Of a DNA stretch of 64,000 nt, positions 1,201 to 62,970 are shown one piece after another (within the stretch, counting starts at the first letter, position 1; each line of letters starts with the position of its first letter). The DNA comes from Dysidea avara. Its lineage: Eukaryota > Porifera > Demospongiae > Dictyoceratida > Dysideidae. Location of the stretch: the NCBI RefSeq assembly GCF_963678975.1, contig NC_089275.1:13981682-14045681 (forward strand). Reading direction: 5' to 3'. The notes under the pieces are model-generated. The model was not told the DNA's origin, searched no databases, and saw nothing but the letters and a program-made list of their open reading frames with translations. The translations under genes and the position numbers were made by a program.

Positions 1201-1467
1201 GTGTGTCTGATATATCGTCCACCTAACTGTTCTGATCAATATAATACCTCACTCATGGCATACCTCAATTCATTCGATAGTACCCAAAACATTGGTTTAT
1301 TGGGAGATTTAAATTTTCCTGACATAGACTGGAGTATCTACAGTGGTAGTTCCCCCACAGCTGATGATTTCGCAGAAGTAGTATTTGGACTCAATTTGAT
1401 TCAATGCATAACTGGCCCCACGCATCGCGCTGGGAACACCCTAGACATAGCCTTGTCTAATATTTAG
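1201..1467 (+). pseudogene. LINE 1 endonuclease (APE/EEP) domain, C-terminal part
   Basis: The 88-residue reading frame contains LIYRPPN and LLGDLNFPDIDW, the characteristic motifs of APE-type endonucleases of non-LTR retrotransposons, which nick target DNA to prime reverse transcription. The frame ends at TAG 1,465-1,467. The domain's conserved SSDHYL motif appears in the next frame at about 1,516-1,533, which shows a +1 frameshift. The N-terminal half of the endonuclease is missing. There is no credible start codon; the frame opens after an upstream stop. Confidence 0.75.
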
Positions 1468-1469
1468 TG

Positions 1470-3178
1470 GCCTTCAACATATTGAAACCTGCACAAACCT
1501 ACCACCCAACCTCTCATCTGACCATTATTTGATAAAACTTCTCATTAACCATGTCCTCAGCAAACCTACAAAAATACGTATACAAAGATTAGATTACAAT
1601 AAAGCTAACTGGGAGGACATGAACCAATTCCTTACAGAATATGACTTTACCTTAGCATTGAATTCTAAAAATGTCGAATTTATCTGGCTATACCTGAAAA
1701 CTGCCATAAATAGTGCTTTAAATCTATATGTTCCTAATATCTCTATTAAAGAATCAAATCATCCCAAGTGGTTTAACCCAACAATCCGTCACAAAATCAA
1801 GTGCCTCCGCACTGCTAAGAGACAACTTGTGAGACATCCTACAGAAAGGAAAAGACTTAAAGTGGAGGATCTACAAAGGGAATTACAACAGATGATAACT
1901 GAAGCAAAGCATGATTATGAAACAAATCTAGCTTTATTCTATGCTCACAGTAATAGTAACAAAATTTTTAAATATATATCAAGTATCAAAGGGCGAGAAA
2001 GCTTTCCTGCTAAAATGTACCACATAAATGAATCAGCATCCACTGACTTGGAAAAAGCTCAACTATTTAACAATTATTTCCACTCAGTTTTTCCTACATT
2101 TACAGGTTCAACATCATCTGTATCTGACTTACAATCAAGCAGTGTCACTCCTCATGTTCAAGATATTCTGTTTTCTGATTCTGACGTCCTTGACTTACTT
2201 ATATCTCTTGACGAAACCAAAGCTTGTGGCATTGACAGCTTTAGCCCAAAAATCTTCAAATACTGTGCAGGGCCACTACTTCATATAATTTGCCATCTTT
2301 TTCACACGAGTATATCATGCAGTTTTAATCCTCTTGACTGGCGCACTCATTGTGTGGTTTCTGTGTACAAATCTGGGGACAAAAGTTCTGTGAGCAACTA
2401 CAGACCCATCTCACTGTTATGTATTTTATCGAAGGTTCTAGAAAGAATTGTGTATAATAATATAATTAATCGTGTCAGAGAACAATCCACCAAACATCAG
2501 TTTGGTTTCCTTCCTAGAAGATCTACGTTACAGCAGTTACTAGTATTTGCAGAAAACGTCTTTGAACCTAACAAATGTGAAGTGGATGTAGTATACACGG
2601 ATTTCAAGAAAGCTTTTGACTCTGTCTCTCACCACCACTTACTTGGCAAATTACTAACCTTTGGAATAACTGGTAAAGCAAGACAGTGGTTTGAAGCATA
2701 TCTACACAATCGCTATCAATGTGTCAAGATAGGAGATTCACTGTCAGAATTATGTTATGTACATTCAGGGGTGCCCAAAGGAAGTGTCTTAGGACCTTTG
2801 TTATTCGTCATTTTCATTAACAACCTACCCGAATTCATTCAATTTGCAACTCCTTTTATATACGCTGATGACACCAAACTTCTATATGCAATTAGATCTC
2901 GTGAAGATACTGCAAAGTTACAAACTGATATCAACAGAGCTTCTAATTGGAGCACCCTGACTGACTTACCTTTCCACGAATCCAAATTTATTCATTTACG
3001 TTTCTTCTCGACTACAACAGTCCCTCCTACATACACCATCAATGGAAATCCTATTAAATGTCTAGCACAGCATAAAGATCTTGGAGTAACATTCACATCT
3101 GACTTCAGCTGGTCAGCACACTATAACAACATATGTACGAAAGCTTACCAAACCTTAGGACTTATCAGAAGAACATTC
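1470..3178 (+). pseudogene. LINE 1 reverse transcriptase
   Basis: This roughly 560-residue open frame carries the end of the endonuclease, a linker and a reverse transcriptase. Visible RT motifs in order are [52 protein letters not shown] and the catalytic FIYADDTK. These place it in the CR1/Jockey/L2 group of LINEs; the exact clade was not determined. The frame stops at TAG 3,179-3,181, and the same frame reopens at once, with homology to the - strand LINE at 17,938-18,621 continuing across the stop. The TAG is therefore a nonsense mutation, not the natural end. Confidence 0.85.
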
Positions 3179-3181
3179 TAG

Positions 3182-18689: not shown

Positions 18690-21600
18690 CAAATTACGCT
18701 TTATTACCTCGGTTTAGTTGCGCGGTCTTTATTCGCCGGGAAAACAAAACGCTTTTCACTGTGGACACCACCTAAATTAACAGCGCTCGCTAGCTTCGAC
18801 GGCTACGTCTTACGACAAGTTACATTAATATACGGAACAACACGTCACTAAGCTTTCCCAATGCACTGATATCTAGCAGCTGCACTGCCTTAGCAACAAG
18901 CTCCAACGCGGTCAGCAAACATGGTAAGTTTATCACATTGTGGTTTTCATGTGTGGTACAATTTGTTTCAGAGTATGTGGGGCTTCGTAATCATGCTAAA
19001 CGCGTAGAGAAATGTTTAGTGTAGATAACAAAATAATAAAAACTTGTGCACTATGGCTGTAGTACCCACTATACATTTATACAATAATAGCATGATAATA
19101 CAATATTTAACAATAGTCATCAGATGGAGTGGACTCTCCAAGTAAGGAAAGATCTGCCACTTGCTCTCAGCCAGCTGACAGTGTGAAGTGCTGCACCCTA
19201 TGTGGTGATAGAGGTAATGGTAAGCAAATGACTAAGTACAGTTACTGGGGGAGTGCTGAAAAGCATTTTGTGTACACACACCTTGGAAAATGCCCCCCAG
19301 ATGAAAGCTATGTTTGTAAGAAACATTTAGTAGAAGCCAAACGACACCATAATGACAACACATTTACACCAAAATGGAAAAAGGCTAATGAAGTTCACAA
19401 TTCTCCTAAAGGCTGTATACATCCACAGTGTCATGACAGATTTCATGAAAAACTTATGAAGCCTGCTTTTGCCACAATCACTGCATTGAAGACTCACCTT
19501 GAAGTGCAGGTAGCTGATGACATCCCATTTCTGTTGTGTCCAGCTTGTTACAGCAAGGTATACCATCAGTTTAACTCCCCAAGTAGATGTTCATCTTGTG
19601 GAGCTACATCAAAACATGGACAAAAATTCATTCGCTACAGTCCCAATCTTACACTGATATCACAGTACCTCACAGAAACAATTGGTACTGAGATAGTCAT
19701 AGGACCAAGTGACAGAATATGTACAAGCTGCTACAACACACATAGTAGCATAGTCAAGTCCATAGAATGCCAACTGAATGGAACAGATGAGATGCTAGAA
19801 AAAGAAATTGAAACATGGGAGGTCACCATTAGAAAACATGATGACGATAAACTAACAAATGCAATTCTTACTGCAGTGCTTTTTGTTGCCCAGTCTTTAC
19901 TGTCACAAAAGGCTGTTCTCCTGCCATGGGTATGCCAAGTATTCCTTGAAGCCTATGGAGTCCAGTATAGTGAAGATGTGAAGTCGGTCAACCTAGAAGA
20001 GAGAGAAAGGATAATTCAATTTTCATCTCGGTGGCTACTAGATCACCTTATTGTTCACCTCCATCCCTATATGATGCACAAGTGTATACACATGAGATTT
20101 GGTACGGTGTTGTACCGAAGAGGGGCAGATCTCTTGGTTGCCTTGTCTTGGGCTCTCAGTTCATCACAGCTTGTGTCATCATTTGAACCTAGTAAACATC
20201 ATCATAAATCACAAAGTAAGCATCCTAACACAGAGACCACACTAAAGGAAGCTAGTGTTATAATAAATGACCTAATCCATGAAGAAATCAACAAATTATC
20301 ACCATCACTTTTAATCAGTATTGATGATAGTCTCAACAATGTGAACCCGTTACTACTACAGTTCTTAACATTTATCACTGACACCATTCGAGAACGTAAA
20401 ACTTCTAGCATTACCTCACATGCAAAGAAAATTCGACTGTTTTTTATCCTGTGCCAATTAATGTTTTGTACCAATCCTAAGAAACCACCACCAATCTACG
20501 ACATAGTAGCAGATACCATCGAAGTTTGTGGGGGATCTCGCAAACTTATGAGAATTTTAAACAGATTGGGATGTTCCAGTTCCCCAGACACCCATGACAG
20601 ATTCGTGACATACCATGCTACGGCTCGACGTCAGGCAGCAATCTGGGATAAAATTTCAACTACATACTTTACTGTAGCCTCAATTGATAACTTCAACATG
20701 CTACAGAGTTATTCTGCTGTTTACTGTGGTGATCAACAGCGGAGTTACCATGGGACAACTCTGCAGCTTGTACAACCAGGAGTACCATTAATACTAACAT
20801 CAAGCAATGAGTTTCAATCTGAACTAGAGACAGCCACTACAGCAGCAGGTACAGATGTGGAGATGACCACACCTCCACCACAATCACCTCCCATTAGTAT
20901 TCAAGAAAGCAATCCAGCTTTTACAACCAATAAACTGATTCGACAGCAGCAACGACAAATGTCACCAGAGAACTCTCCTCACAAGCACGGAAAAAATGGA
21001 CCCAAGCGCCAAAGGACTGTGTCAGTTAACAGCTTAGTACCTTCTCTACAGACCAATTTAGATACACTACCACCACCTCAACTCACACTTACCTTAGAGA
21101 GTTTCCTAGAGAACAACCATCAAGCAAATGAGAGGATATCATTGGACAATAAGCTGTTTTCATACATTATCCAGAAGTATTGTTTGCACTACCGCCAACA
21201 CACAGATAGCGTTTCACCAAATGCTGTTATCAGTGATGTTAGAGTATTTCTAGATGACAACAGGCACTGTGATTTACAGCACACACAGTGTACATCAGCT
21301 GTACATTATATGGAATTATTGGATGAGAACCCTGACTGTGCAGAGACAATGTCAATGGTAGCAGAAGATCTGTTGGCAAGATTTGATGGAGTCCAGGATG
21401 GATGGGTGATTTTAGTGGGAGATGGGAAGACCTATAGACACCTCATGAATGTCAAGAAACAGTATAGCACAATGTTGAGAAAGCTACTAATTTTTCCAGG
21501 AGACTGGCACATTATGAAAAACTACCAGCCTATTTTAATGAAGGAATACTACTCTGCCGGTCTAAGAGAGCTGGCTAAGAATTCTGGCTATCATGGGACC

Positions 21601-24600
21601 ACACTTAAGTCGTTGGAGCACTGTTCAAACTTTAAACGTACACACTATTTCTTGCTGCAAACATGGGAGGCCTTATACAGGGAAATGTGGCGTGCGTATG
21701 TTTTAACCAATAAGACTACCATCACTGAGGATGTCACTTGCATACTCCTTACTGGCATACAGACAAAGAACTCACCTAAGAACATGATGGAGAGAATTTG
21801 TGAACTGGTGAAGGACAGCAACAGTGGAGAAGACTTCAAGAAGTTTGTGAAACAGATGGGTGAAAATGACAAAACATGGAAGTTTTGGACCCAGTTTGTT
21901 TTTACTGACTGTTTTTGTTACTTTGCTCTGTATTTAGCCATAAGGAGTAGCAATTGGGAGTTACGCATAACCAGTTTAAAGCTAATGGCTCCCATGTTTG
22001 CAGCATTTGACAGGGAATATTATGCCAGAATATTGCCCCACCATCTTGGTGAGATTCAACACTACCCACCAGTGCTTTTGAATTGCTTGGAAAGAGGAGC
22101 ATTTACTGTCAAGCTAACTCAGCAACATTGGCGAGCTGTAGCCCTCGATGAGGCACATGAAATGTGCATTAATAAAGATTTAAAGACTGCCATAGCTCGC
22201 CCTACTAAACCTTACCTGCAGAAAACCACATTGTTTTTAAATGATCGAATTAAAGTACACAAAAATCTTATTCAAGAATTGTTCCCAGAACGTTTCGAAC
22301 ACCACAAAGAGTCAAATAATAACATCCTTGATGATTCTCCTCAGGCATGCAAATATGAACAAAACATCAAACAGCTTTGCAGTGTTGCTTCAGAAAATCA
22401 GTTGTTTTGTGTACAGCCTAAGAATAGAGAGCTTTTGAATGTATTCACTGGACAAGTAGCCACCAATGAGCAAGCATGTGATATGCTTTCGTTTCGTCAG
22501 ATTGGAGAGCAAGCATTTCAGGATTACGTCAAGTACCACATGTTGCAGTATCCAACCACAACAAAGCCCACTCTAAGACAACATAAACTGTTGACTATGG
22601 CAACGAAAAAAACAGTTAAACCTAAGGGCACAGCCAAGGAGAGAGATGATAAACATCTAATCACATGTTTACGACGCCATTTAGTTTGGTCCAACTATCA
22701 TAAGCTTGGGAGCCCATCAGAAGTACAATATTCAGAATGGCCACGGGCACTAGCGGATGAGCAAGGTAATCCTCACAAAGGTAATAAGAGCACTTGGACC
22801 ACTAAGCTGGCTAGCCGGTATCAGTCAGCTGATGCTCCCATCCTAGTTTCACACTTGCCATTTATACCTCACATTGCTATTATCGATGCCATGTTTATAC
22901 TAAACACAAGACCACTTCGCCAAACTAAGACTTTCTCTGAATATACAGTCTTTCTTTTTAATCAGTTCATTCTACAACACTTTAAGGCCGGTACATCAGA
23001 GGTTCATTTAATATTTGACAAACCTAATGTGCAAGCGTTTAACCCCAAACAGTTTGAGCAGGCAAGACGGTACTCAAACAGCAACACTGACCATCAACAT
23101 GGCTCTTTTGGTCCTGACGCTCAAGTACCAAACAAGTGGCAGGAGTGTTTACAGTGTCAACAGTGCAAGCGATTATTAGTTGAAGCTGTTGGGCTAGCTC
23201 TACTTCAGAAGGGACGCTATCTCCTAACATCTAAACAACGACTGATTCTAGCTGGGTGTTTCTCGGGTTTAGGTGAGAACACTGCATGGTTGTTAAGCCC
23301 CAGTGAACTTGTTGCAGAGCAACTTGAGGAGTACTACTCAACTGCACAAGAAGCTGACACCAGAATGTGGCGCCATGCTGTGCAGTCACAAGCTAGCAGT
23401 GTTCTCATCTATTCCCCAGATACTGATGTCTACAACATTGGATTAAGTTTCGTGAAGCAACATCCTACAACTACGTACATAGTACAAATTAATGTTCCAC
23501 ACTCTGACAGCAACAAGTACATCAACATTAATAACTTACAAACAGCAATGTTGAAAGACTTTGATTTAAGGAGTATGCGGCAGAATGACCTGGGCTTGGT
23601 ATTGCAAACTTTATTTATTTGCTCAGGATGTGATTACATCTCCTACTTCAGGTCCATAGGCAAGGCTACAGTACTCAATTGTTTCTTTCAGTACGCATCA
23701 TTTATCTGTGGACAAAACATGCCTGGTTGTTTACATGATACATCACCACATAACAAAGAACAAGGATTTTTAGCCTTTGTTAGATTGGTCGGATCATTGT
23801 ATTTTAGAAAGCATTTAAAAACATTTGAAGCAGCTAAAGGACATAAAACCCCCATCCACCTTTATAACTCCATAGATCCATTGTTACAAGCTGAAGAGAG
23901 GCACCGGCTATGGCTAAACCAAATTAGAGAAGTAGTTGGTACCAGAATCATCCATGAAGAGGAAAGAGTACCCACTGTGACATCTCTTTGGCAGCACTGG
24001 CTACGATCATGCTGGATTAGTCAAATGTGGCAGCAATCTAGTAAGCCAGACATTTACGGATCACTACCACCCCCAAATGACTATGGTTGGAAACTGACTG
24101 ATGGAAACTACACCATTGAATGGGAATCCCCTGATACGCAACAGAAAATAAGGGATAACATAGAATTTTTGCTGAAAGGTTGCAGCTGTAAAAGTGGCTG
24201 CAATACTATGAAATGTGGATGCAGAAGGAAACAAAGAAAGTGTGGTCCAGGGTGCCTATGCCAAAGTTGTATGAACACTGATGAATGTGAGAGTAGCAGC
24301 AGTGAAGATGAAGAGACTGATTTTGAAGGAACCAGCTGTGATGAACCTGAAGTAGTATTAGAGCCAATAGAAGAAGAGATTATAACTGAAGATGACTTTT
24401 ATGATACTACTTATGAATACTACATTGTTTAACAATATTTTATGTATCAGTTTTTATGTAAGTTAATGAGGTCTCGTACTACACTCTATCAGTTTGCACG
24501 TGGTACAATTTGTTTCACAAAAGCACATACTTTTATATTGCTTATACAAGTAGGCCATACAAACCTTTCAAAATCCGTAAAGTCAGATTTTGTGCACTCC

Positions 24601-26603: not shown

Positions 26604-29014
26604 ATGAGAGCAACTGTAACATTTTTTGTTAGCTTGCTCCTCTACTGTGAGCAATCCAGTGCACAGCTTACTAGGGAGGAGAAACAAAGCGGCCTGGACC
26701 TACACAATGACTTGAGGAGACAAGAAGGAGCCTCCGACATGTTATTAATGGTATTGTTACTATTACAATATACACATCCCGAGATAAAGCCTCTTGTACA
26801 GCTGTACAGCGAGTGACAATATTAAATTCCGGCTATGGTTACGTCCATCAATTATTTAATTTAGTTGTTAACTCCGTTTCGATCTACGTAATAATGTGCC
26901 CCCCGCGAACTTTAAATTTGCTGCTGCTGCTGCTCTTACAGTATATGTACAAACAAGCAATTGTCAAGACTAAAATAACAATAAACACTATTTACATGCA
27001 ATAAATACAAATATTTCTATAGCTATTGTTGTTTATTTTACTCTACAGCAATGGGATCAAGATTTGGCAGAGTTTGCACAGCAGTATGCTGATGAGTGTA
27101 GATTTTCCCACAGCAGTTCAGCTGATCGGATGGGCCTTGTTAATGACTTCTCGTGGATCGGTGAAAACCTTTATGTTACGAGTGCCACAAATCCTGACAG
27201 TGTATTGGACACCGCAATACAAGCTTGGTATAATGAAATATCTGATTACGACTACAATAGCAACACTTGTCAACCAAGTAGAGTATGTGGACACTACACA
27301 CAGGTAAGAAACAGCATTAATTTTCCCTTTCATATTATATATCATTCTTAACATGAATACAGTAAAATGGTTCAAGTGCATGTACACATTATTACACATG
27401 TAGATTAGTATCAACTATAACTGATTTTAGGTTTTACACATATCCAAACTCTACAGGTGGTGTGGGCAAGATCATATTTGGTGGGATGTGGGGCAGCCTC
27501 CTGTACTAGACTATATGATGCTGGATTCTCATCAGGAACTCTTGTTGTGTGTAACTATGCACCAGGGTGAGTTACTCCCTTGTAAAACTGAGCATGTGAC
27601 TACAACAGTACTCCTTATGAATACAACATGATGATGACAATGTACACATTATGTTTTGTGTGTGAAGCCAGTCGTGGTGTATCAGTTTACAGATTACCAT
27701 TTATTGATAAATTCCTTGTAGCCATTGCCATGAATATCTTGGTGACGATGTCTGCACATCAATAAACAAGTGATAGGTGTATTAAATTTGGACGAATTTT
27801 AAGTGTAGGTTAGAATGTAATAGTCCTAAAATGATGTTTCCCTGTTCATAATCAAGCATGAACATGATTTCCATGACTGTATTTCAGAACTCTGACAAAG
27901 AGTTTTAGGCATGAAATTATGGTTTTTAACAGTGATTTGATAAGGTCACCTCAGTTTGAGATTAGAAGTATGGTATATCAATAATGAGGAAGTGGTTTTA
28001 ATAGGTCACAATATTGAGCTTGTCTTAATAAATAAAGAGGTATTACTGAATTGTGCAACTATAGTTATATCACCTAGTAACACATAATTATGATAGTACA
28101 CAAACAGACAGTGTGAATATTTCTAATGAAAATAAACAGATTCAGTTGATCACTATTATAGAGTCACTTCACACTACATTATATCTTGAACGGTGCACAT
28201 CAAATAAACTGACTACCAGTATGTAAACTATTAACTTTCATATACTGTTTTGATCACCACAATCACTAGAACAACAGTGTGGTAATGCTGATTGTAGCAT
28301 GTTATGTAACTACTTTCTGTACGTATGGATTAGTTATGTTATCATCATTATAGAGGTAACATTATTGGTCAACATCCTTACACTGTTGGTGGAGCCTGTA
28401 CTTCCTGTCCAGTTGATGCTAGCAATTGTGTGGATGGACTGTGTTGTAAGTTTAGCAACATGTAGTACACTGTTGCTATGTATAACTATCTCCATCACTT
28501 CCGTCTATGTAAATGACAAAGGTCTTACTCAAATACAGTCCAATTAATAATTTGGTATAGTTGTAAAAGTGAGAATATCTGAAGCATGAACAATGTCAGA
28601 TTTTAGCTAATAATTAGACAAACTGTGTAGGTAAAATTTTAAAAAAAAACTTTAATTCATTTGCTGATAGTGTATTAGCACACCTTTTTCATAATATCTT
28701 TATCAGGGTCAGATCTAGACTTTTTAAAGCGGAGGGGTCACAACATGCAGCTCATCAAGTATTAGTTAAGGTTAAATTTGGCTTCCATGGAATCCTTGGA
28801 TCTGCTCCTCACATCTTGTAATATAAGTGCATAATAGTATGGTATGTTGTAGTTACTGTATGTATGTGTGTTTGAATAATTATGTCTTGTGAGGAAACAA
28901 CAAAATCAATTGTGTAGTTATGTTGTTAACTTTACATGACCTGTTACACAGCTGCTCTGAGTGCACCATTTGCGGTACCTGATGATGACAATGCCGGAGA
29001 GATCATAAAGCCTA
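26604..29014 (+). other. Exons 1-5: signal peptide, CAP domain and linker
   Basis: Residues 1-21 form a hydrophobic signal peptide ending SSAQ. Residues about 23-185 form a CAP (SCP/TAPS) domain: HNDLR, GENLY, WYNEI, the CAP1-type GHYTQVVWA and CAP2-type CNYAPGGN. All four cavity residues typical of CAP proteins (His, Glu, Glu, His) are present. A Cys-rich hinge ([16 protein letters not shown]) follows. Exon 5 encodes a short acidic linker with no stop and joins in phase (A|AA) to the first IPT/TIG exon at 29,887. If the exon 4 donor at 28,446 were not used, a stop would follow within seven codons, giving a possible short secreted CAP isoform. Confidence 0.85.
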
Positions 29015-32000
29015 GTGAGTTTCAGTTGTACTGCTTATGTAGTAGTATGTAAATATACTGTATCCTAGATGGTTTGTATTATGTATTGTGTAAATGCTTA
29101 ACTTCAAGGAAGTTGTTACATCTATTTCATAATCTCACAAGAAGGTTGAACTACTTCAACATGACACCTCAGACTAACATGGGGATTAACATTGCTTATG
29201 AAGTACAAACTGTAATTGCCATACTGCATAAGTGATCTGATTGGTAATATTGGAAAAATTAATTGCCACCTTATTTGCTCAATAAGTACAGCTTGCCTAT
29301 AGTCTCACATGACCTAGAAAACAGTCATTTGCCAAGTTTGTTGTTATGCTTCATTAGCCAATCTACCAAATACAAGAGTTATAATGGCACAAATATTAAT
29401 GTAATAGGCTAGCAAAAGCATTAAGCATTTTACGTTAGAGATGTTTAATTAAAATACATGTTGTAAATACCAAAATACAGTGAAATAATGAACAAACTAC
29501 TAATTATTACTACAATTTCATATTCACATTTTGCAGAGATACTCTAATGCAGTAGTCACAATAAATAATGCACATACTGTAAACAAATAGTCAGCTCTCA
29601 AGCATGCTTATTAATTACATCTGAGAGCTTAATTTTGAGCATGAAGGGCTTGAAGTGCTCAAAAGCATAATATATCTTTTCAAAGCAATATTATTGTGTA
29701 TCCCAGGGCCTTCTCTAATCTACCATAAAGCACAATAATTTGTTTCTTTATGTAATAAACAACCAGGTGCCATGTTTGGTTGTGTAATCACATCTCATAG
29801 AGTTATTACATTTGACCAATGTCCCCTAGTTTGGCTTAGGCAAAATACTGTACATATTAACATTTGCTTCTTCTGTGTATTTACAGAAGTGAACTCAGTT
29901 GTTCCTCGTAATGGCGGTCTTGGAGGTGGAACAAGAATAACCATCTCTGGAATAGGTATGATGGATACCTTACTGTACAGTATGTTTGCTTTGAATAATA
30001 TTATTGTGTCCCTACAATTGGATATACTATATGTACTTAGAATTACAAGTGCTAAAAAAATAACCATGAGCTGCATTTTTCCAGTTCTTAGTCACTTTCA
30101 AATTCTTTGTAAAATGTTATACATTGGCATAATTTAGTGAAAGAAAATGTGTTGCTATATTATTCTCCTAACAAAACAACTATATAAAACAGATTGCTTC
30201 ATTACTGGCCATTGTGTAACATTTTTTCTGTAGGATTTAGTCCTGACCAATACAGTTATGATGATCCTAGTAAGGGTAATCGTGTCTACTTCACTAATGG
30301 TGACAACAGAGTAGAATGTCAAGTATACACCTACTACACTACCACTGAACAAATAGTGTGTGATACTGGGTATGTGGTATTCATTATAATATTACAGGGT
30401 TTTGCATATTACAAAATCACACTAAACTTCAAGTGACATAATAGAAGAAACTTGTGTAGCTGTAGATAAAACTTTTATCATGCACCTTATAAAATAAATT
30501 ATTAATCACTGTCCATGAAGCTATGCTTATACAATGTACATGCATAGCAAATGGAGCCCAAAAGTGTTTTTATTAGAGGTACATGCTGTCCACCACCTAT
30601 GACAATAACGACAGTTATTTGCTCTTCCTGCTCATTGGGGAAGCTTGGATATCTTTAGCTTTAATATAATATCACAAGTGACAATGAGTTAGCTGCTTCC
30701 TGCAGTGTCAGGTCACTGAGCCTCTTTGTTTGTGCATGTATGACCTTTCTCAGAGTTTGATTTTGTTGAGGCTCTTTCCTATTGACAATCCATTAAGTCA
30801 GAAATGCATTCTTCTAAACTTTATCTGGTAATTGAAATCCACTTTTGCAAAGGAATTTGTGAAAGAAGTTTTGAAGAATTGGCTTACAACACTCCCATTG
30901 AATGATCCAGAATGAACTCGATTTTGCTATGCACCAGCTCTGCCTTACAGGATGCTTTGGCCTTGCATTATGGATAGCCTCCCTTCTGTACATGAGCTCT
31001 TGTACTTTTAGGGTTTCCTTTTCTGTGGATCATGTGCTTTCTTGTTCAAAGGAGAATTACCTTTTCTTTGCCACAATAAGATGAGTAACCTAATTACAAC
31101 CATTTTGATGGAGGTATGCTTTCAAGTGTGTACTGAACCAGAACTGCAGCCTGTCCATAATCCCTACCTTAAATACTGAAGAGGGGACTAGCTTGGACAT
31201 CACCATGACTGGCATTTGGGGTGGTGATTCTGAGAGATTTTTTTGTGGATGTCCATGTCTTCCACCATCTACTTGCCCCTTCTAATACTTCTCCCATGCT
31301 TTCATCAAGCATGAAAACATCAAGCATCAAGCTTATGGCCAGTGAATTTGTCATGTTTCATTTACACCTACAGTATATTACCGAGGACAGGAAATCAGCT
31401 CACAGAGCCACAGTGTTTTACAAGCAACTGCATGGCTTCTTTCGTATTGGCTAAGTTGGGTGATGAGTACCCTGTAGTCTTGGGTTGGCTTCGGTGCTGT
31501 CTGGGTTTTCTCTGCTCCAGCCAGCCATTCAATGTATTTGAAGTGCATGCTCTTCCATTGATGTCTACACTAGGACTGCACCACCAATGGATTTTGCACA
31601 AGTGGAGTCCCACCTGCCTGAGTAACATACCCGCTGAGCATGTTATTCCATTTTTTGATTGTTTTGCAGTTGTCCAGAATTGGCCATTCTATATGCTGGG
31701 GTGGTAGGCAAAGGCAGTCCATCAAGCTCAAGAAAAATAAATTAATAAATTAAATTGGAGTTCATGTCAAGAGGATGATATAATTATACTCATATGTTGC
31801 TGATTTACTCAATAGTCAAGGATGTACTATAGGTGTTCTGTTAGTAATGTGGGCTAGCATTTTGCTACATACCACTAACTTACTATATATATATATATAT
31901 ATATATACAAACCAAAATCATACCAATAATGTACTATCTATAGCTATATGTGGCATGCTAAGTAGTAGGGAGTCAGAAACAAACGACTAAAAACTCTGTT

Positions 32001-35000
32001 GAATGCAGAATAAAATTCCAGACCAGGTAGTGACTTGATCCACATACAACTTGCAGTTTATGCCTCTATGGCTGAGGAGCCATACAGCATTCAACCAGTA
32101 CTTAACAATATGATCTTTCCTATTGTGTTTAAAACCCCTCATGGTTCATTAAGGGTTGTTTGTGTTTCATTAATAGTCATATGCTATTATTTTTGATTAG
32201 TCCTTCACCTACTGGTCAGGCAGGAAGTTATGCACTTAATATAATTATTGATGGTAAAACTGTCACCGAACTTGAAGGAAGCTACTGTGGGAGTTGCAAC
32301 TTTGAAGTGAGTGAATTATAATTGAACTGTTTGTGACCTACTATGTCAGTGTTGTTACTACTGTATGTTTGCTTTAATCTGAATAAATTCCATACATAGT
32401 ACCGAGATGACAAAACACCAATGATTGAATATGTTTTTCCACATGCTGGTACCCCAGGTATGTCAGTTAAGTATATAATTCTAGTACAATGTACATGTAA
32501 GCACGAATACTCTTGCATCTTAGACATCCTATCCAAGTAGAGAGCATGCTTGAACACACACTGTCGTGCTCTAATAGTCATATTCTATGACTATATGTTC
32601 AATCTGAGAAACAATGTTCTTGTAGCTATTATGTTTAAACAAATGTGAAACTGCAGTACATGCATATTCATAGCTGCCTGCTCAGAACATATTTCTGCTG
32701 TCAACTCTTCTTGTATCAATGGGATTACTTATTAATGTTATACAGGATCAGTGGCATATCTCACTGGAAGGACCTACACAGTTAATGTTGATGATCCTGA
32801 TGAGGAGGACCTCATCACCAGGTACGCTCCAGTGAAAAACTCACAAGTAAATGCTAAAAGTTTAACATCATTATTAATTTTTATTTCAGAATATTTGTTG
32901 GTAATGAAGTATGTGATCCAATTGATTCTGTCACCGGAGAATCGTAAGCTATTTTGTTCTATTGTATGCTGTATGTACAAGTACACAGAAAATTTTGGAA
33001 CTTTCAACTAGAGTAGGGACCATAACACATTGATAAAAAGTACTGAAACAAGCTGGAGTAGTGCACGATTATTAAATCACAGATCTTACTGTATGATATG
33101 TGACTGGGCCTGCGAAAACAGTCCACATGCCCTGTTTTTGAAAGGCCCAGTCACATATACTGTTTTTTAATTTTTGTTTTATTTTAGTGTTTAATCAGTA
33201 CTTCTTGTACCACACAGGAATTTTTATGATAATCTATTGCATCTTTCAAATTGTGTAGGTACAACAGTAGTCTGTCTGATACCACTGGTATGGTTGGCTG
33301 TTTACCAATGACTGGAAATAGAATCGGTTAGTGTTTAACATAATTCCATTGGTACATTGATGTATGTACATAAATGGTTAGCCAATTGCTTGTAACATAC
33401 AGAGATTTAATTACCTTACTATCTAAATAAGTTGTTAGAAGTAAGGATGATTGTTGTTATACAAACTGAACAACTGCTGAATAATTCAGTATGGTGTTGT
33501 TACTGTGTGGTTTAGTTGTGATTACCTTAATATGTATTTCATCTTTAGCTTCCATGAATGCAACCTTAATTGTTCCGAGTTACGGGAGGTAGGTATATGC
33601 AACATGCCTAAAATATAAGATAACTTCATGCATTTCTGATAAACACTTTCTGGTATTGTTAAACTCTTTTTGATTATGTAGCGCTGTCACTTCAATGGAA
33701 GATTATTCTCTGGACAACAATTTGAGACCATACATTTACCAGACACATGCTGGTGAGTGAAGATATTATGATTGTTCTAATTAAAGTAGCTAAATATTTA
33801 AGATGAACTTTGTTAGTGCACTGTAGTTAAATTTACAAAGAATGGAATAATCAACATGTGCTATAGGTAACAGTTGGCCTGAGTCAATTATGTTCTAAAT
33901 TGTGCTCAAAATGCTTCAGGAATTTCCCTATTATGCTCTTCAGTGTTCAAATCATGTTCCTAGATTTAACAACGTTTCTTAACATTTCAAAAAGTTTTAA
34001 TCAATGATTGCTGTATTAAAGTATTTCACTACAAAATGGCTGTTCTATTAGAGAGTGTTGATCTAAGGAACTGTGTACAATGCATTTGAGTGCCTTAGCA
34101 TTTTCCACTGACTGCTCTATTAGGAAATGTGACTGGATCTGGGAAAACCGGTCTTATTGCCCATGTCAGCAGATTTGATTTTTCATCATAAAGACAAGCT
34201 ACGTGAATAAGCTATTAAATTTCATTACCAAAATCAGCTAGACTTGAGTGGTCTGCTTTTGCTGGCTGCTTTTCCCAAGTACAGTAGCAATCTGTACAAG
34301 AGGTCTGGGGCCCTAATGGAGCTCTGGCCAGCCAGGGAGTTTGGGTCAGCTGTATATGGCTGTACAGCACCATGGTGTTGAACAAAGACCTGTGCTGTAA
34401 ATGTGCTTTCATTTAGCCAGTTTTGAGACTAAAATGGCCCATAACTTGGCTTAATTCATCCCTAAGCCTTCCTTTTCAATTTTTTGACCAACCTTTTGCC
34501 CTTCTTCTGGGCCCCCGCTTCCCTCCCTTTTTGGAGCTTGCCTGATACAGTCAATCTCAGTTTAAACACTACAGGGGTGCATCTAAAATAGTGGGAAACT
34601 TAGCTGTTGGCTACTTGCACATGGATGCTCTAAAAGGTAAGGAATTGATGTAAACGAGTGAATATTTGATACACATAGCTTCAACGATTAGCGAGTTACA
34701 ACACATTAAATACTTAAAACTGGCATTTCAGAATACTTTTAAGTAGGCGATAAGACTGGTTTCCCAGACTGCATCACAAATATTGATTTATTTTCATAGC
34801 ATCAGCTCCATAGTTTGCTCCTAATTAGCTAGCATTATGCTAGCATAACACTCCAGCCAATTATTATGCCAGCATATATGACACAGACCTACATAGTAAA
34901 AGTATACAGTGTTTTGAGGTAGGTTTTTTGAATATGATTTTAGAAATGTGATATTGTCTGTACAGAGATTTTATAAGATAATAAGACATTAGTGGTGTAA

Positions 35001-38000
35001 CACTTATCTAATCCAAAACAGCCAAGCTGTAAAAAACGTGTGCGGCCCTCAGAAAGGCTATGGTGAAAAAAGATGTGAAATCCAAGGTGGCGGCCAAGAA
35101 ATGGCTGTGATGGTAGGTTAATGGTAAAAATTTTAATAACGACAATTCAGGTGAATTTTTGTGCCGCTTCACAAAATTTACCTGAATTGTCATTATTAAA
35201 ATTTTTACCATTAACCTACCATCACAGCCATTTCTTGGCCGCCACCTTGGATTTCACATCTTTTTTCACCATAGCCTTTCTGAGGGCCGCACACTTTTTT
35301 TACAGCTTGGCTGTTTTGGATTAGATTTCATTTCTTTTTGTATTTGTATACCCCAAAGCCGGCCTATGGCCAGCTTTGGGACTTTTTAACCTATGTTTTT
35401 TTCTTTACTACAGGAAGAAGTAAAGATGAAGTAGATATACTTTAAATATTTTATCAGTAAATGTACAAATTATATATATAATACATATGTGACTGGATTT
35501 GCAAAAAGGGGCCTTCCACAAACATCCTATTTGCCAACTTTGACAATTGATAACTTCAGATTGGAAAGAGCTATTGCCTTGAAATTTGGGCAGTGGTGAT
35601 TTCTTTGCAGCTGAACTCTCGACATGATGGTTTCTTTGTAGCTGAACTCTCTACAAGGCAATTTCTTCTAGCTGATCTCTCTACAGGGAGATTTGTTTGT
35701 AGCTGAACTATCTACAAGTTAATTTCTTCTAGCTGATCTCTCTACAGGGAGATTTGTTTGTAGCTGAACTATCTACAAGTTAATTTCTTCTAGCTGATCT
35801 CTCTACAGGGTGATTTGTTTGTAGCTGAAATCTGTACAGGTGATTTGTTTGCAGCTGAGCTCTTTACAGAATGGTTTCTTTGTAGCTGAACTCTCTACAA
35901 GGTAACTTTTCTAGCTGATGTCTCTACAAGGTGGCTAGTTTGTAGCTGAACTCTCTACATGGTGGTTTCTTTGTAACTGAACTTTCTTCAAGGTGACTTC
36001 TTCTAGCTGATCTTTCAATAGGGTGATTTGTTTGTAGCTTCACTCTCTACAAGGTAACTTCTTCTAGCTGATCTCTCTACAGGGAGATTTGTTTGTAACT
36101 GAACTCTCTACAGGTGATTTGTTTGAAGCTGAACTTTCTAAATGATGGTTTCTTTGTAGCTGAAATCTCTACAAGTTAACTTCTTCTAGCTGATCTCTCT
36201 ACAGGGTGATTTGTTTGTAGCTGAATTCTGTACGGGTGATTTGTTTGCAGCTGAGCTCTTTACAGAATGGTTTCTTTGTAGCTGAACTCTCTAAAAGGTA
36301 ACTTCTTCTAACTGATCTTTCTACAGGGCAATTTGTTTCTGGCAGAATTTTCTACAGGGTGATTTCTTTGCAGCTGAACTCTCTACATGGTGGTTTCTTT
36401 GTAGCTGAACACTCTACAAGGTAATTTCTTCTAGCTGATCTCTCTACAGGGAGATTTGTTTGTAGCTGAACTATCTACAAGGTAACTTCTTCTAGCTGAT
36501 CTCTCTACAGGGTGATTTGTTCGTAGCTGAATTCTGTACATGCAGGTGATTTGTTTGCAGCTGAGCTCTTTACAAAATGGTTTCTTTGTAGCTGAACTCT
36601 CTACAAGGTAACTTCTTCTAACTGATCTTTCTACAGGGCAATTTGTTTGTGGCAGAATTTTATACAGGGTGATTTCTTTGCAGCTGAACTCTCTACATGG
36701 TGGTTTCTTTGTAGCTGAACTCTCTACAAGGTAACTTCTTCTAGCTGATCTCTCTACAGGGTGATTTGTTTGTAGCTGAACGATCTACAAGGTAACTTCT
36801 TCTAGCTGATCTCTCTACAGGGTGGTTTCTTTGTAGCTGAACTCTCTAAAAGGTAACTTCTTCTAACTGATCTTTCTACAGGGCAATTTGTTTGTGGCTG
36901 TATTTTCTACAGGGTGATTTGTTTGCAGCTGAACTCTCTACATGGCGGTTTCTTTGTAGCTGAACTCTCTACAAAGTAATTTCTTCTAGCTGATCTCTCT
37001 ACAGGGTGATTTGTTTGTAGCTGAATTCTGTACAGGTGATTTGTTTGCAGCTGAACTCTCTACAAAGTAATTTCTTCTAGCTGATCTCTCTACATGGCGG
37101 TTTCTTTGTAGCTGAACTCTCTACAAAGTAATTTCTTCTAGCTGATCTCTCTACAGGGAGATTTGTTTGTAGCTGAACTCTCTACATGATGGTTTCTTTG
37201 TAGCTGAACTCTCTACAAGGTAACTTCTTCTAGCTAATCTCTCTACATAATCTCTCTACAGGGAGATTTGTTTGTAGCTGAACTCTCTACATGATGGTTT
37301 CTTTGTAGCTGAACTCTTTGCAAGGTAACTTCTTCTATTGATCTCTCCACAGGGCGATTTGTTTGTAGCTGAACTCTCTACATGGTAGTTTCTTTGTAGC
37401 TGAACTCTACAAGGTGATTTTTTCTAGCTGAACTATCTCTTTCCATAGTTGCATGAACTCCCTACAACGTAACTTCTTCTAGCTGATCTCTCTACAGGGT
37501 GACTTGTGTGTAGCTGATCTCTATACAGGTTTCTTATTTCTAGCTGATCTCTTGAATTCTCTTCAGGGTGACTGCTCTATTAGGATGACTGCTCTATTAA
37601 AGTATCTCGATCTCGCACTTGCCGCACCAAGTTGGATTTCGTGTTATAACTCCGTGGCTTTACGTCTGATTCTTCTACACCATTGATGAGCCTTTCTAAG
37701 ATGATTACTCCATCTGTACAACGATTTTCAAAGCATTACCCTAAGCGGTTTATCTGGTAGGCGTGGCAAGCAGTCGTTTTTTTATTAGCAAGTACGAGTA
37801 CGATCTACTGACACCTCATCAGTCAGGATTTCGTTCTGGTTATTCCACTCATGATGTGCTGCTGTATGTAACAGATAAATGGATTAGGGCTATTGATAGA
37901 GGTGAATACACTGGAGCTGTGTTTTTGGATCTGGCTAAGGCCTTTGATACTGTTGATCATGCGATTCTGTGCTCTAAGTTGCAGTGTTATGGTTTTCACG

Positions 38001-41000
38001 GAGCGTCTTATGCCCTGTTATGTGACTATCTGTTAAATCGACAACAACGTCTGGTGTTTAATGGTAACACATCAGACTGGGGCACTGTTACAATTGGTGT
38101 GCCCCAAGGATCTGTTTTAGGTCCATTGCTTTTTGCTTTATACATCAATGATTTGCCATCTGTCGTTGATTACTCTACTATGGACCTGTACGCTGATGAT
38201 GCTGAGTTGCATTATAGCCATTCAGACTTGGGTGTTGTGGAAGCACAAGTTCAATCTGATTTGGACAAGGTAGCTCAGTGGATCAGTAGTTCTCATTTAT
38301 GTCTTAATGTTGTGAAGTCAACTGCCATGCTCATTGGAAGTCGGCAAAGAATTTCGGGCAAAAGTTTTAATGTCTCAATTGGGGGTATGGCTTTAAGCCA
38401 AGTTGACTCTGTTCGATATTTGGGTGTTATAATTGATCCCACATTATCGTGGTCCTTACATATCACTAATATAGCCTCTGGAGTTAGATCAAGATTCTCA
38501 TCAATCTTTCGGTATGGAACTTTGACACCTGCAGTGCTATGTTTGCTTTATTCAGCTTTTGTCCTACCATTGTTTGATTACTGTGATGTTGTGTGGTGCC
38601 CCACCACCGCTAAGTTTACTGCACTGATTGAAAGAACTCACTCTAAGTTTATGAAAAAATTGCCAGCATTGTACCAGAGCAAGTTTTCCTTTACTTTGGT
38701 GGAACGTCGTAAGTTTCATACAGCTATACAGATCTTTAAATCTATTCACCAGAAGCTACCTTCGTATCTCCACAATATATTTCACTATTCCAGAGATATC
38801 ACAGGTCATATTGGTCGAAACATTAATAGACTCTTTGTTCCTAGAGTAAACAACAATTATGGGAAAAGAAGTTTTTATTACAGGGGAGCTATGATATGGA
38901 ACAGTTTACCATCAACTGTTACTGAAGCAACCAACTTATCTAAATTTGTACGGTTATATCATGATAAATTTAGTTGATTGTATCTGTGTAGTTTTGTGTA
39001 CTGTTCTTTGTATACCCTTTTGTGTTGTATGTTTATGTATGTATGTATGTATGTATGTATGTATATATGTATTTGTGTATGTATGTATGTATGCTTGTTT
39101 CGCAGGGCTCCACTGAAAATCAGTGTTTTTCACTGAGTGGAATCCCTGTTTAAATATTACAATTACAATTACAATTACAGCTGATCTCGATTGCGTAATT
39201 GTTACACACTGTTGGTTTTTTTGTTGTATCGTCCTGGTTTTTAGCTCGATTTCTTTCAAACCACAAAAGATTTGAGGTTCAATAGTCAACCTATTCACCC
39301 ACCGATTTTCAGCTTCTTCCCATACGCGGTTTACCCTGTAGGCGTGACAACATATTGGTATTATTTTTCGTGAATAATCGCTCATAACTCTTTGCCTGTT
39401 TATCGTATTACAGCCAAAATTGGTACCGAGATGCGCCTTTATATCCCCCTTATGTGTGCCAAAGTTCAAGACAATCGGATATGGAGTTCGAGTTTTATAG
39501 CAGTTTTTGTAAGTGTGCGACAAGAAAAAGAAAAATAAGAAGAAAAAAACGAAGAAACTGAGCCAATTTTTGAAGTCGCATATCTCGGGAACGCGCGAAG
39601 CGATTTCGCTCACATTTGGAATGTGGAGTGCTGCAGTTGGAGGGAATGTCCACAGCAAAAATCGTCTTGTTTCATCAAGGAAGCACAGAGCTACGGAGGT
39701 GCGAAAATTGCGTTTTCTTTCTTCCTGTCAATATACTCACGGGTGTTACGCGCCGGCTTCTTGGGCCGCACGACACACTACCGTGTGTCTTGATATAACA
39801 CATAATTATAATAGCTGCAGTGATATACACACATGAGTGCTACCATGGGAAGCTTAGGAAGTTTGGTGACTCATTTACAATCCAAACTTTTTGTAGTTCC
39901 AGGGCTTAGCTACAAAGCATTATAATTAACATTGTGTAGAAAGGATGGTCTACACCAATAGTGCACATGTACACCTGTATTTCAGTGTGAGAAACATACT
40001 ATATGTAGATGTCAATCTAGGAGGCCTAGGCTCTGGGAGCATGCTCTCCAGGAAAGATCCTCTGAAGCCAAATTTGAAAGTAGTTTGTCATAATACTGTT
40101 ACTAAAGAATGGCTGGCTGTTGTATTAGGGTGACTGCTCTATTAGGGTATATCTTGATCTTGTTTGCACAGTTCCTGGAGTCTCATAACTCCCTGTAGCT
40201 ACGCCTGCTTACCCTTAGAAGATTATATAACTAGCATAATGAACAAAGTGCTATTCAACTGCATATTGTATGCTACTTCTAGGCTCAAAATTTGCATGAC
40301 ACATACATCCAAGGCTGGTATGCATCAATACTATGCTTTGGGATAAATTGTTTGACTTCAGGATAACAAACCAAATTAACAATGGTTTTATAGACAACTA
40401 TAATTATCTCAAGACTTGATGTTTAGTGGTTTATTGAAATATACTATAAATATTTTTTGAAGAAGCACTAAGGATGATTTCTCTATCACCTATGCAGACA
40501 TAACTGGAGTAAGTCCTAATATGGGTAGCATCAATGGAGGAACTACCATCACGATATTTGGAAAGCACTTTGATCCTAATGCCACTGACACTGAAGTGTT
40601 GGTAGGAGGTGAGATATTATTTAAACTATTACACTATTCCTGAATGTATGTTCTATTTGATATGATAATCCAGACACAAAATATATATTTTTTATATGTA
40701 CACCAAACCTTTTATTTAGTAAAGACAAAAATAGTAACAAACTAGTGTATACAGGGTACATGCTTCTTCATAAAATGAATACAAGCATATAATTTTATAC
40801 TGTTTTGTGCTCATCATAAAAAAAGAATTTTCATGGAATTTGTTGAATACCTTGTTACTTATAAGTCACAACATTAATCCAATCTTATTTTTGGATGTGA
40901 AAGGAACACTATACTGAGATAAATTATGTAGCAGATTTTTAATCAGTGAGCACTCTAATTTGTGAAAATGTACATATAGAAAAAGTACATACAAATTGTG

Positions 41001-44000
41001 ACCACTGTTTACACATCCATCACTTAGGGGTACCTTGTGACATTCAAGATATCACCACAACAGAAATTACTTGTATCACTGGTCCCAGTCAAGGAAATTA
41101 TACTCACTATGCAGGTACATGTAATTAACATGTTTGCCTACATGCTACACTACATAATAATAATAATAATTATCCATTGCTGCTTTGTACAGGTGGTAGA
41201 GGGTTACGTCGTCAACTATACGGACATAGGTGGAATTTAGAGAATTTTAGATCAAATGCAAATGCTAACCCACCAAAGAATGAGAGCTATACTGAAATTG
41301 CATTTGCAACTTATCTGCGACCAGCAGAATTTGGAGAGAGCACTTATTTCAACACAAAATACACAGGGTTTTTTGTACCTCCATTTAGTGGCTTCTACAC
41401 ACTTTATGTTTTATCTGATGATCAAAGCAGGTTTTATCTTAGCCATAACATGTCAGCAGAACATGCTGAACTCGTAGCATATGCTGATCGACATACTAGA
41501 GGCCAATGGAATCACTTACCTACACAGAAGTCTATACCTATTGAACTAGAAGGTGGTAAACCTTACTACTTGGAAGTTTTACATACCCAAGGTCCTGGGG
41601 CTTGGAATCTTGGATTTGGTGCTAAATACCACAATACTAATCTCACATCTAGTGAGGTATATGGAGAACATGAAGAACAACAAATAGTGTTATCAGCAGA
41701 GCTTAAGAAGGAAACACAGGTAAGAGAATATGCTATTGTGTATACACCAATGTTAGATTAAGTATGAACAGATAGTACTCATAGTAGACATCATAATAGG
41801 TCAAATCTTTCTTCTAGAGAGATTTACCAGGAACTCATAGTAAACAATTTCCTTGTAGTCAATAATAAAGTTCATACTATATGTAGTTCCCAAGGCCCAA
41901 GGGTTGTATAACTAACATAAATCTTTATATTTTACACTATGTTGACCTCAATTTACCATGATGTAACAAATAACAGCAAAACAGGTTTCTTCCATATTCC
42001 AGCCTTACACCAAGCATGTTAGCTTCATTTTCTGTAATGCAATAACATTTCAAAGTACATTTTATTATGTGTATGCATGGCCTTTGTTAGGTGGTCACCA
42101 TGTATATTGAACCAATGATATTGAATGTTACAATCACTGGATCTGCATCTTCACCATTTACACTACGATATGGTTCATCAGAATCAACTAGCTTAACTGC
42201 CAGCACATCAGAAACTCAGTTTGACTCAGCTGTGACAGCAATCATTAATGGGGCTAATGCATCGAGCATTATAGTGACCAAGAGTGTTGTTGATGATCAA
42301 ACTACATTTCAAGTAGTATTCTTTGAGGCAACACAGAGAACTACTACCTTAGAAATTGGGCAATATGATTCATCATTTATAACTATTGCTATTGTAACAG
42401 TTCAAATGGGTCGTTTTCCTAATGACTTGATGTTAGGTTTATCAACTCGAATGACAGACACCATCTCACTACCAGACAGTGATAACAATTTCATAGTAGG
42501 CCAACTCCATGACATCATCTCAGTCACTTGTACTAAATCTTCAGCTGGTCAGATATACTGGACACACAGTTATGATGGTACTACTGGTCATATTTCTGGT
42601 ACATTTGATAATACAGTTAATCCACAATGTGGACGATACTCACTAAAGAATCCATTTACAGTATTCACAGCAACTGCCAGTGTAGATGACATCACTGGAA
42701 ACACCATGCCACCTTACCCTGTAGCAGTTTATAACTGGGTAAGGTAACAGTATGTGTATCCTGTAAGAATTTGCCACTTACTGCAACTGTATGCCAATTC
42801 TCAAAAACTGCATAAAAATTGTAATTTCATAATAAAAGCAAACGTTTTGCCCCCACCATTATTACATAGCATACCATTATGGATGGATCAAATGCTACTG
42901 CCATTTTATAAATTATTACACTGGTATGTAACACAGACTGACGTATCACTACTGGAGCTACCACTTCAGACTACTGGAACAACTGTGTGCAGTAAGATTG
43001 CTAATCTATGGCTATTTTGCTATAGGAGACACGTGTCTTCATTCACTATACAAACGTATTCCACAGATACAGCAATGAGACTACATAGAGTAATAAATCT
43101 ACTATATCTTTACAAACAACCATACAGTTAAACACCTAATACTTCTAGCATTTACTGAGGCTTCCCATAGCACATAGAATTATTATGATGGCCAGACTCG
43201 TAAACACTCCACACAAATTTCATGGGTATGTTAGACTATTGATTAAAGTATTACATATAAGATTAACCATAAAATGCTACTTTGGTATACATACAATAGA
43301 GTAACAAGGCTGCTCCTGCAAATAAATAGCAAACCAAACCATGGCTATCAATCATGTGCATCAAAATTAAAATCTCAGTAACTATTGGAGCCTCTAATGT
43401 TTGTTATTGGTCAATGCTTGTAATAAAAGATTAAGGTACATAGAAAAGCCACCTTTCTAACTTTCATAAGTAATAAGTCTATACACTAATCCATCTGCCA
43501 CCTTCCTATTAAAGTCAACAAATCTCGGCCCAAAGGTGGCTTAGACAGGTTTCACATTTAGAGCTATCAACTGCTATAATAAAACTGTCAGCACCACCCT
43601 AATACAGCAGTCCCATTTTAAATTTCTTCCAGTTGCAAGTAACTGCTTAATTCACCTGAAGCAACCCACTATAAATACTACCAAATAGCTTCTAAAATCT
43701 AAAATTTTCAAAAGGGATGTCCGTACCTGTTGTATACATGTGCTTAAAAGGATGTCCGTACCTGTTGTATACGTACATGTGCTTAAAAAATACTATAGTA
43801 TTTTTAGATGTCCGTACCTGTTGTATACATGTACATGTTGTATACATGTACCATACCTGTCGATTTTGAAAATCTTAGATTTCAAAAACATCGTTGTACC
43901 TGTTGTATACGTACATGTGCTTAAAAATACTATAGTATTTTTTAAGCACATGTATACAACAGGTACGAACATCGTTTTAGTCTAATATGTTACTTTCATT

Positions 44001-62934: not shown

Positions 62935-62970
<36 letters not shown>

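Follow-up and report, generated by a model that had tools for sequence, protein, structure and literature searches.

Does a CAP domain encoded directly upstream of a fibrocystin-L-like gene in the sponge Dysidea avara belong to the same protein? The CAP fold occurs in venom, sperm and plant-defence proteins. A sequence-only reading of a 64,000-nucleotide stretch of contig NC_089275.1 (the window, to which all positions below refer) proposed that exons for a signal peptide and a CAP domain are spliced onto the first IPT/TIG exon, which would be a new architecture. Its premise that vertebrate fibrocystin-L starts directly with IPT/TIG agrees with the accessible text of PMC11043200, in which the human protein has a signal peptide followed by IPT1.

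The gene in the window (copy A) lies on the plus strand and consists of 21 exons between 26604 and 56734; exons 1–20 join into 1202 stop-free codons. The borders proposed earlier were exact (exon 4 end, 28445; exon 5, 28952–29014; exon 6 start, 29887; exon 14 end, 33752), but the gene continues well past the proposed extent of 26604–33752. Exon 1 (26604–26750) contains the ATG, a hydrophobic, signal-peptide-like start and the N-terminus of the CAP domain, and both the start codon and the exon are present in all five copies of the gene described below. Exon 2 (27049–27303) encodes the CAP core with its cavity tetrad, as indicated by Pfam, a structure-sequence alignment and comparison of the copies. 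Exon 3 (27457–27566; Pfam match) encodes the C-terminal part of the domain, ending in VVCNYAPG, and exon 4 (28354–28445) the end of the domain and a CRISP/GLIPR1-type hinge, terminating in phase 1. Of the five small exons previously assigned to the signal peptide and CAP domain, the first four hold the start, CAP domain and hinge, but exon 5 (28952–29014), bordered by phase 1 on both sides and with a counterpart in all copies, encodes an acidic linker to the first IPT/TIG domain. That domain begins in exon 6 (29887–29955). The N-terminal IPT/TIG region continues through exons 7–10 (30234–30369, 32201–32306, 32400–32457 and 32746–32821) and exons 11–14 (32890–32943, 33259–33326, 33549–33588 and 33682–33752), with further IPT/TIG sequence in exons 15 and 16 (40498–40608 and 41028–41114; Pfam TIG at residues 450–508). 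Exon 17 (41193–41719) encodes a PA14 domain (Pfam, residues 562–650), and is followed by exons 18–20 (42091–42738, 44708–44999 and 45520–46115) and by the very long exon 21.

The CAP domain is complete, as had been claimed: residues 31–168 match positions 1–117 of the 117-position Pfam profile PF00188 with an E-value of 1.5e-19 and 71.4 bits, above the curated cut-off of 21.1. Among solved structures, human GLIPR1 (3q2r) is the closest in sequence (E 3.7e-38), and the cysteines of the hinge behind the domain also align with it. The His/Glu/Glu/His cavity tetrad is conserved in all five copies as H70 (CRFSH), E88 (GEN), E112 (WYNE) and H131 (GHYTQ) in copy A numbering. We take H70 to be the first tetrad histidine from the GLIPR1 alignment and from other CAP structures. 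Three of the motifs listed earlier as cavity residues (GEN, WYNE and GHYTQ) do carry the tetrad, a concept described in the available part of PMC4921858, but the fourth, HND, is a conserved motif that does not hold the tetrad histidine. By hydropathy only, scored in copies B–E, the N-terminal start is hydrophobic in B, C and E (best 19-residue means of 1.37, 0.97 and 0.86, respectively); in D, the highest-hydropathy window within the first 200 residues is not near the start.

The body of the protein resembles fibrocystin-L. It contains an IPT/TIG array (2 + 11 Pfam stretches) with the PA14 domain inside it (31.8 bits; cut-off 24), followed by two G8 stretches (49732–50088 and 52216–52581; Pfam) and a CEMIP/TMEM2-type beta-helix (CEMIP_beta-hel, 219.8 bits; match to 8c6i, E 6.3e-48). 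The 11 IPT/TIG stretches, G8 domains and beta-helix are encoded by the first open frame of exon 21 (46264–54564). A frame-breaking 4-nt insertion (TGCA, 54495–54498), found only in copy A on alignment with copies B–E, precedes the stop of this frame. The downstream open frame (54488–56734) is homologous to the C-termini of B–E and includes a transmembrane-like segment (56471–56527) and a tail. In B–E this segment has a top 19-residue hydropathy of 2.74–3.22, with a few other windows above 1.6, and is followed by 71–90 residues. The description of the protein as membrane-anchored therefore applies to copies B–E; copy A is frameshifted ahead of the segment and, as assembled, would give a product without a membrane anchor. 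No relaxed constraint was seen behind the insertion (dN/dS 0.34–0.40 for A versus B–E, 0.25–0.40 among B–E), so the insertion is recent, allelic or an assembly error.

Four further copies (B–E) share this exon set, N-terminal CAP domain included, and are found on the same chromosome (C4) within a span of 182 kb; one of the five genes is on the plus strand and four are on the minus strand. All 20 introns are bounded by GT-AG in all five copies, where the borders of B–E were set by alignment to A and some of those in exons 1, 4, 6 and 8 were shifted by hand by 1–3 bases before the GT-AG check. As had been stated for the downstream junctions, phase is kept throughout by the exon lengths, and the sole break is the insertion inside exon 21 of copy A. 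The proteins of B, C, D and E have 4698, 4724, 4720 and 4736 residues, respectively, and contain no internal stop. Linker aside, amino-acid identity among the copies is 72–95% depending on segment and pair, falling to 63–67% in exons 15–20 for pairs with E. Trees of different segments of the five copies conflict, which suggests conversion or recombination within the cluster. An assembly artefact or chance arrangement was rejected, since these are five separate, sequence-diverged loci of identical structure.

The genome is that of an animal by 27 exon-level Wnt matches, and two other groups of genes in it each resemble one part of the fusion. The CAP-sushi genes on C8 have CAP and hinge exons with introns at the same positions and phases as those of the C4 genes, which points to exon shuffling. 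They differ in that a sushi-like exon comes next, that no TIG or G8 was found among the C8 matches listed, and that the cavity residues are mostly lost (the motifs read DSYTQ or DPYTQ and WFDG, and nothing aligns with H70). The gene on C11 is fibrocystin-L-like and, unlike the C4 genes, has no CAP domain that could be found. Its IPT/TIG pieces are collinear with those of the C4 genes, it has G8 matches, and the border before its first IPT/TIG exon is in phase 1 and identical in position to that of exon 6; overall similarity is modest (best tblastn E-values 4.5e-4 and 0.001, other collinear pieces 0.095–2.8). The inventory of CAP genes was made by a Pfam search, with the best candidates scored and read exon by exon. 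None of the 20 Pfam CAP matches listed is on C11, the 9.7 kb preceding its first TIG exon contain nothing better than E 0.53, and no signal-peptide exon of this gene was identified. The signal-peptide, CAP and hinge exons may have come from a secreted CAP-type gene and been placed, through a phase-1 intron, before the exon that opens the IPT/TIG region in a fibrocystin-L gene, with duplication of the fusion gene probably following. With donor-type genes, a CAP-less acceptor-type gene and the fused product in one genome, the locus offers a clear case of exon shuffling.

The junction itself bears on whether one gene or two are present. The CAP exons (26604–29014) run in phase and without a stop into exon 6 and beyond, as first proposed. 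The linker comprises 20–22 residues (63, 66, 60, 60 and 60 nt in A–E) and is in phase in every copy. In each of the other four copies, a counterpart of copy A exon 5 lies between exons 4 and 6, as modelled, at a score reached by none of 200 dinucleotide shuffles of each copy. A point against the fusion is that the linker is weakly conserved (37–84% identity; dN/dS 0.23–1.03 on 19 codons). By a crude comparison of A with B, C or E, using one shuffle each and leaving aside two introns that exceeded the testable length, 16 of 19 introns were within 0.05 identity of shuffled sequence. Such a pattern is difficult to reconcile with an adjacent secreted CAP gene and a fibrocystin-L gene that were co-duplicated as a pair and wrongly joined. 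This alternative draws on the different endings of the C8 CAP genes and on poly(A)-like motifs (AATAAA/ATTAAA), which every copy has in intron 5 and which C and D have in intron 4 as well. Against it, exon 5 stands out from introns that are mostly at about the shuffled level, with both splice sites in five of five copies and lengths that are multiples of three, and phases agree across the 20 introns. Read-through stops 6, 20, 22, 22 and 33 residues beyond the exon 4 donor and 12, 26, 32, 13 and 11 residues beyond the exon 5 donor (A–E), with no stop common to the copies apart from the close pair C–D after exon 4. Upstream of exon 6, copy A has a 50-codon open frame with one Met and copy E a 9-codon one with a Met; neither is shared, and no start codon common to the five copies was found. 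Given the presence of exon 5 in all copies, the phases and the lack of a common stop or start, the two-gene model was rejected as the main explanation and appears very improbable. The same motifs make a short secreted CAP isoform possible, such that intronic polyadenylation at a single locus would yield it alongside the long protein; the available portions of PMC10772126 and PMC12419799 place CAP-type proteins in sponge skeletal matrices. Since motif positions vary among copies other than C–D, AT-rich introns are expected to hold such motifs, and read-through tails differ, we consider two products unlikely. One gene with the CAP domain N-terminal to a fibrocystin-L-like protein is supported by the five conserved copies, their phases and borders, and the CAP-less relative. 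It is very probably a real fusion, encoding a giant surface protein with a complete CAP domain and hinge at its N-terminus.

Whether the head has a function of its own is a separate matter. If the CAP domain were an exon-shuffling passenger without a binding role, retained only as a source of the signal peptide, its fold could have outlasted its cavity, as in the C8 proteins. The tetrad is intact in all five fused copies, however, and dN/dS of exons 1–4 (0.25–0.34 in 10 of 10 pairs) is near that of the rest of the protein (0.22–0.27 in the first 8190 nt of exon 21; pairs not independent in either case), which leaves the passenger role with little likelihood. By these ratios, purifying selection acts on CAP and body alike (0.18–0.34 overall), and a CAP head kept in five copies looks like a real, maintained protein design. 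Alternatively, the cluster could be an array of five diverging membrane receptors that recognise self, non-self or microbes through the head. Clustering, the conflicting segment trees and the variability of the cytoplasmic ends (in the last alignment window, identity is 49%) would fit such an array, which is nonetheless improbable because the CAP domain is among the better conserved parts (82–87% identity, C–D pair left out) and no sign of diversifying selection was seen, mean dN/dS being at most 0.53 in every 150-column window.

For the preferred fusion, the CAP head would sit at the outermost part of the cell coat on a stalk of IPT/TIG, PA14, G8 and beta-helix domains. There its surface and cation-binding cavity may bind a partner, be it a lipid or a protein of the matrix or of a second cell. 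The sterol/lipid-binding or secreted-effector module suggested by the sequence-only reading is a putative role, and binding of sterols, fatty acids or divalent cations, a trait of the CAP superfamily, would be a candidate activity of the head. Yeast Pry3, a surface-tethered CAP protein, offers an analogy: according to the accessible text of PMC7340583, it is a GPI-anchored cell-wall protein whose effect on a cell-cell process depends on highly conserved CAP residues, with sterol binding reported as dispensable, and it has a Ser/Thr-rich region and GPI anchor instead of a fibrocystin-L stalk. Partner binding by a stalk-held head is a tentative proposal, held with much less confidence than the fusion. 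A new CAP-fibrocystin-L receptor family, formed by phase-1 exon shuffling and cluster expansion, with a cation-dependent head contacting cells, matrix or microbes, is more speculative and rather unlikely.

The CAP head is a testable part of a fibrocystin-L-like protein. A natural version with a domain of ligand- and cation-binding type at its tip suggests that the N-terminal end is a plug-in site for binding functions. In the available text of PMC11043200, stereocilia need fibrocystin-L for their coat, and deafness follows when the protein is lost; its relative fibrocystin is the product of the ARPKD gene, and its molecular function is described as little known in the text of PMC13424714.

No CAP-fibrocystin-L architecture appeared among the literature matches listed, and the suggestion of a new architecture is not contradicted by them. 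A search of a prokaryotic contig collection with the TIG-G8 alignment of the five copies, in which only host contamination would be detectable, gave 33 pattern matches and no confirmed relatives. GLIPR1/CRISP-type proteins (3q2r, snake CRISPs) share the CAP domain, hinge cysteines and tetrad but are small, whereas here the domain heads a protein of about 4700 residues. Human fibrocystin-L has PA14 and G8 domains. The N-terminus does not match the vertebrate arrangement, in which the mature protein starts at IPT1: CAP, hinge and linker stand first, and from its domain order the gene would be classed as a fibrocystin-L homologue with a new head rather than canonical fibrocystin-L. Human PKHD1L1 (4243 residues) likewise has many IPT/TIG domains, a TMEM2-like region and a C-terminal transmembrane segment (PMC11043200, accessible text). 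It differs in its cytoplasmic tail, given as 8 residues there and as 9 in the available part of PMC13424714, compared with about 71–90 here, and in the sponge gene about 3500 codons lie in a single exon.

The genome holding the window comprises 550.8 Mb in 108 contigs, and the window occupies 13981682–14045681 on contig C4. Wnt matches at exon level numbered 27 (best E 1.2e-49), with hits in 0 of 14 control genomes, which marks the genome as animal. The exon borders given by the sequence-only reading, which had claimed that a CAP domain is fused to the N-terminus of a fibrocystin-L (PKHD1L1-like) homologue, were exact to the single base. These exons were extended through segments conserved in paralogues to a full model of the window's gene (copy A), with 21 exons (E1–E21) at 26604–56734. 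E1–E20 code for 1202 residues, and E21, one uninterrupted exon, spans 10,471 nt. Pfam searches placed a CAP domain at residues 31–168 of the E1–E20 protein (E 1.5e-19), which also contains TIG and PA14, and found 11 TIG stretches, two G8 domains and CEMIP_beta-hel in E21. In PDB sequence searches, the CAP head is nearest to human GLIPR1 (3q2r, E 3.7e-38), with an alignment that runs through the hinge cysteines, and E21 is nearest to cell-surface hyaluronidase (8c6i, E 6.3e-48).

A Pfam search of the same genome, with the best candidates scored, gave at least 20 CAP and at least 13 G8 matches. Among the matches listed, five genes on C4, the contig of the window, account for 10 of the 13 G8 matches with two each, and the other three lie on contig C11. 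One CAP match is located upstream of each C4 gene, on its own strand; copy A is on the plus strand, and the four paralogues (copies B–E) are on the minus strand at 14.05–14.22 Mb. All five copies were modelled from 200 kb of C4. The E11–E20 borders needed no adjustment, falling on AG/GT in 40 of 40 alignments, and within E1–E10 some borders of E1, E4, E6 and E8 were moved by 1–3 bases where the alignment flanks were gapped. In the final models, each of the 20 introns is GT-AG in every copy. No internal stop interrupts copies B–E, which encode 4698, 4724, 4720 and 4736 residues. Length differences are multiples of three in E1–E20 of all five copies and in E21 of B–E, copy A deviating there through a 4-nt insertion. 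The linker exon E5 measures 63, 66, 60, 60 and 60 nt in A–E; its counterpart was found at the modelled position in all four other copies, scoring 48–52 against shuffle maxima of 30–36 (200 shuffles each).

On the question of one gene or two, read-through past the E4 donor gives CKF, with tails of 6, 20, 22, 22 and 33 residues in A–E, the one common length being that of the close copies C and D; past the E5 donor it gives 12, 26, 32, 13 and 11 residues. The frame upstream of E6 is open for 50 codons with one Met in copy A and for 7–9 codons in B–E, with a Met only in copy E. No start codon before E6 is thus common to the five copies. In a crude intron comparison (one shuffle each, two overlong introns left out), 16 of 19 introns of A against B, C or E were within 0.05 identity of shuffled sequence and three were higher; introns of C against D were clearly above it in six of seven. 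Since the introns are mostly at shuffle level, the exons outside the C–D pair are not mere leftovers of recent duplication. Over 10 pairs, dN/dS was 0.25–0.34 for E1–E4, 0.18–0.31 for E6–E14, 0.27–0.34 for E15–E20 and 0.22–0.27 in E21, taken over its first 8190 nt; the linker, with 0.23–1.03 on 19 codons, is weakly constrained. Mean dN/dS stayed at or below 0.53 in every 150-column window; variability was highest in the last one (49% identity), for which copy A was left out. Selection operates on both the CAP part and the fibrocystin-L-like body. Shared models in five copies, GT-AG introns and selection on both parts thus bear out the proposed fusion, which is very probably real.

The insertion (TGCA, 54495–54498) is present in copy A and missing from B–E. 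It leads to a stop at 54562–54564, so that the protein ends at 3968 residues and does not reach the transmembrane-like segment. Under the usual exon-junction rule, a stop in the last exon may spare a transcript from decay; because this stop sits there, the copy A transcript might escape decay and give an anchorless form. No relaxed constraint was seen in the copy A frame behind the insertion, which is recent, allelic or an assembly error.

The C11 gene, a second fibrocystin-L-like gene, matches copy B from residue 224 (E 0.001), where the first complete codon of exon 6 lies, and again at 449–502 (E 4.5e-4). Other matching pieces are collinear but weak (E 0.095–2.8), and TIG domains cross-match. 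Its TIG1 exon has an acceptor identical to that of E6 in position and phase. No CAP match lies on C11 among those listed in the genome search, the 9.7 kb upstream gave nothing better than E 0.53 against the CAP part, and a signal-peptide exon of this gene was not found. Either the CAP part was added to the C4 genes or it was lost from C11; we infer addition, because the vertebrate protein starts with a signal peptide followed by IPT1 (PMC11043200). Contig C8 carries three complete or partial CAP genes (two in locus L021, one in L022), whose exon borders coincide with those of CAP exons 2, 3 and 4 (phases 0, 0 and 2). Their hinge exon is two codons longer at its end, which is again in phase 1, and is followed by a phase-1 sushi-like exon. 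Such a pattern would be the expected trace of exon shuffling through phase-1 introns.

Elsewhere in the genome, a cluster on C3 has at least 10 CAP matches in the Pfam search. An intronless 666-residue ORF on C3 (L025:784-2784; G000:C3:4299784-4301784) contains four tandem CAP domains, GAPR-1-like by eye, with no evident signal peptide. TIG domains also occur in stop-free open frames of 13,588 and 13,596 residues at G000:C12:6196039 and 6277573.

HND, listed by the sequence-only reading as a cavity residue, does not hold the histidine of the CAP cavity tetrad (His/Glu/Glu/His), which we take to be H70 (copy A numbering) from the GLIPR1 alignment and from other CAP structures. The tetrad, as described for Pry1 (PMC4921858), corresponds to H70, E88, E112 and H131, and all five copies retain it intact. 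The C8 CAP-hinge-sushi genes keep GEN, have DSYTQ or DPYTQ and WFDG instead, and have no residue aligned with H70; most cavity residues are lost and the intron positions kept. To our knowledge, the nearest precedent for a tethered CAP domain acting at the cell surface is yeast Pry3. According to PMC7340583, GPI-anchored Pry3 inhibits mating via highly conserved CAP residues, sterol binding not being required. Sponge skeletal matrices contain CAP-type proteins (PMC10772126 and PMC12419799), so a matrix role is possible. Our best guess, a tentative one, is that the surface-displayed CAP head binds a partner. Among the full-text literature matches listed, no paper describes a fusion of a CAP domain with fibrocystin, fibrocystin-L or G8; within that set, CAP-fibrocystin-L is provisionally a protein of known kind whose domain architecture is new.

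Segment trees group A with B in E1–E4 (support 0.70), E1–E7 (0.91) and E6–E14 (0.93), A with E in E15–E20 (1.00), and B with E in E21 (0.99). Because these trees disagree, recombination or conversion between the C4 copies is likely. Synonymous divergence is lowest at B residues 139–286, which together with the conflicting trees suggests gene conversion among copies A–E.

Intron 14 of copy A is 6745 nt long, versus 76–2905 nt in the other copies; its region 35595–38977 holds a 31-bp repeat array (54 copies), and the ORF at 37745–38977 is reverse-transcriptase-like by eye. Upstream of the gene, 19117–24432 is a single ORF of 1771 codons with a DUF6589 match, perhaps transposon-related, and 1451–3181 is a reverse transcriptase ORF (RVT_1, E 7.7e-27). 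At 60650–62956, 76.6 tandem copies of a 30-bp unit (93% matches) contain long open frames on both strands.
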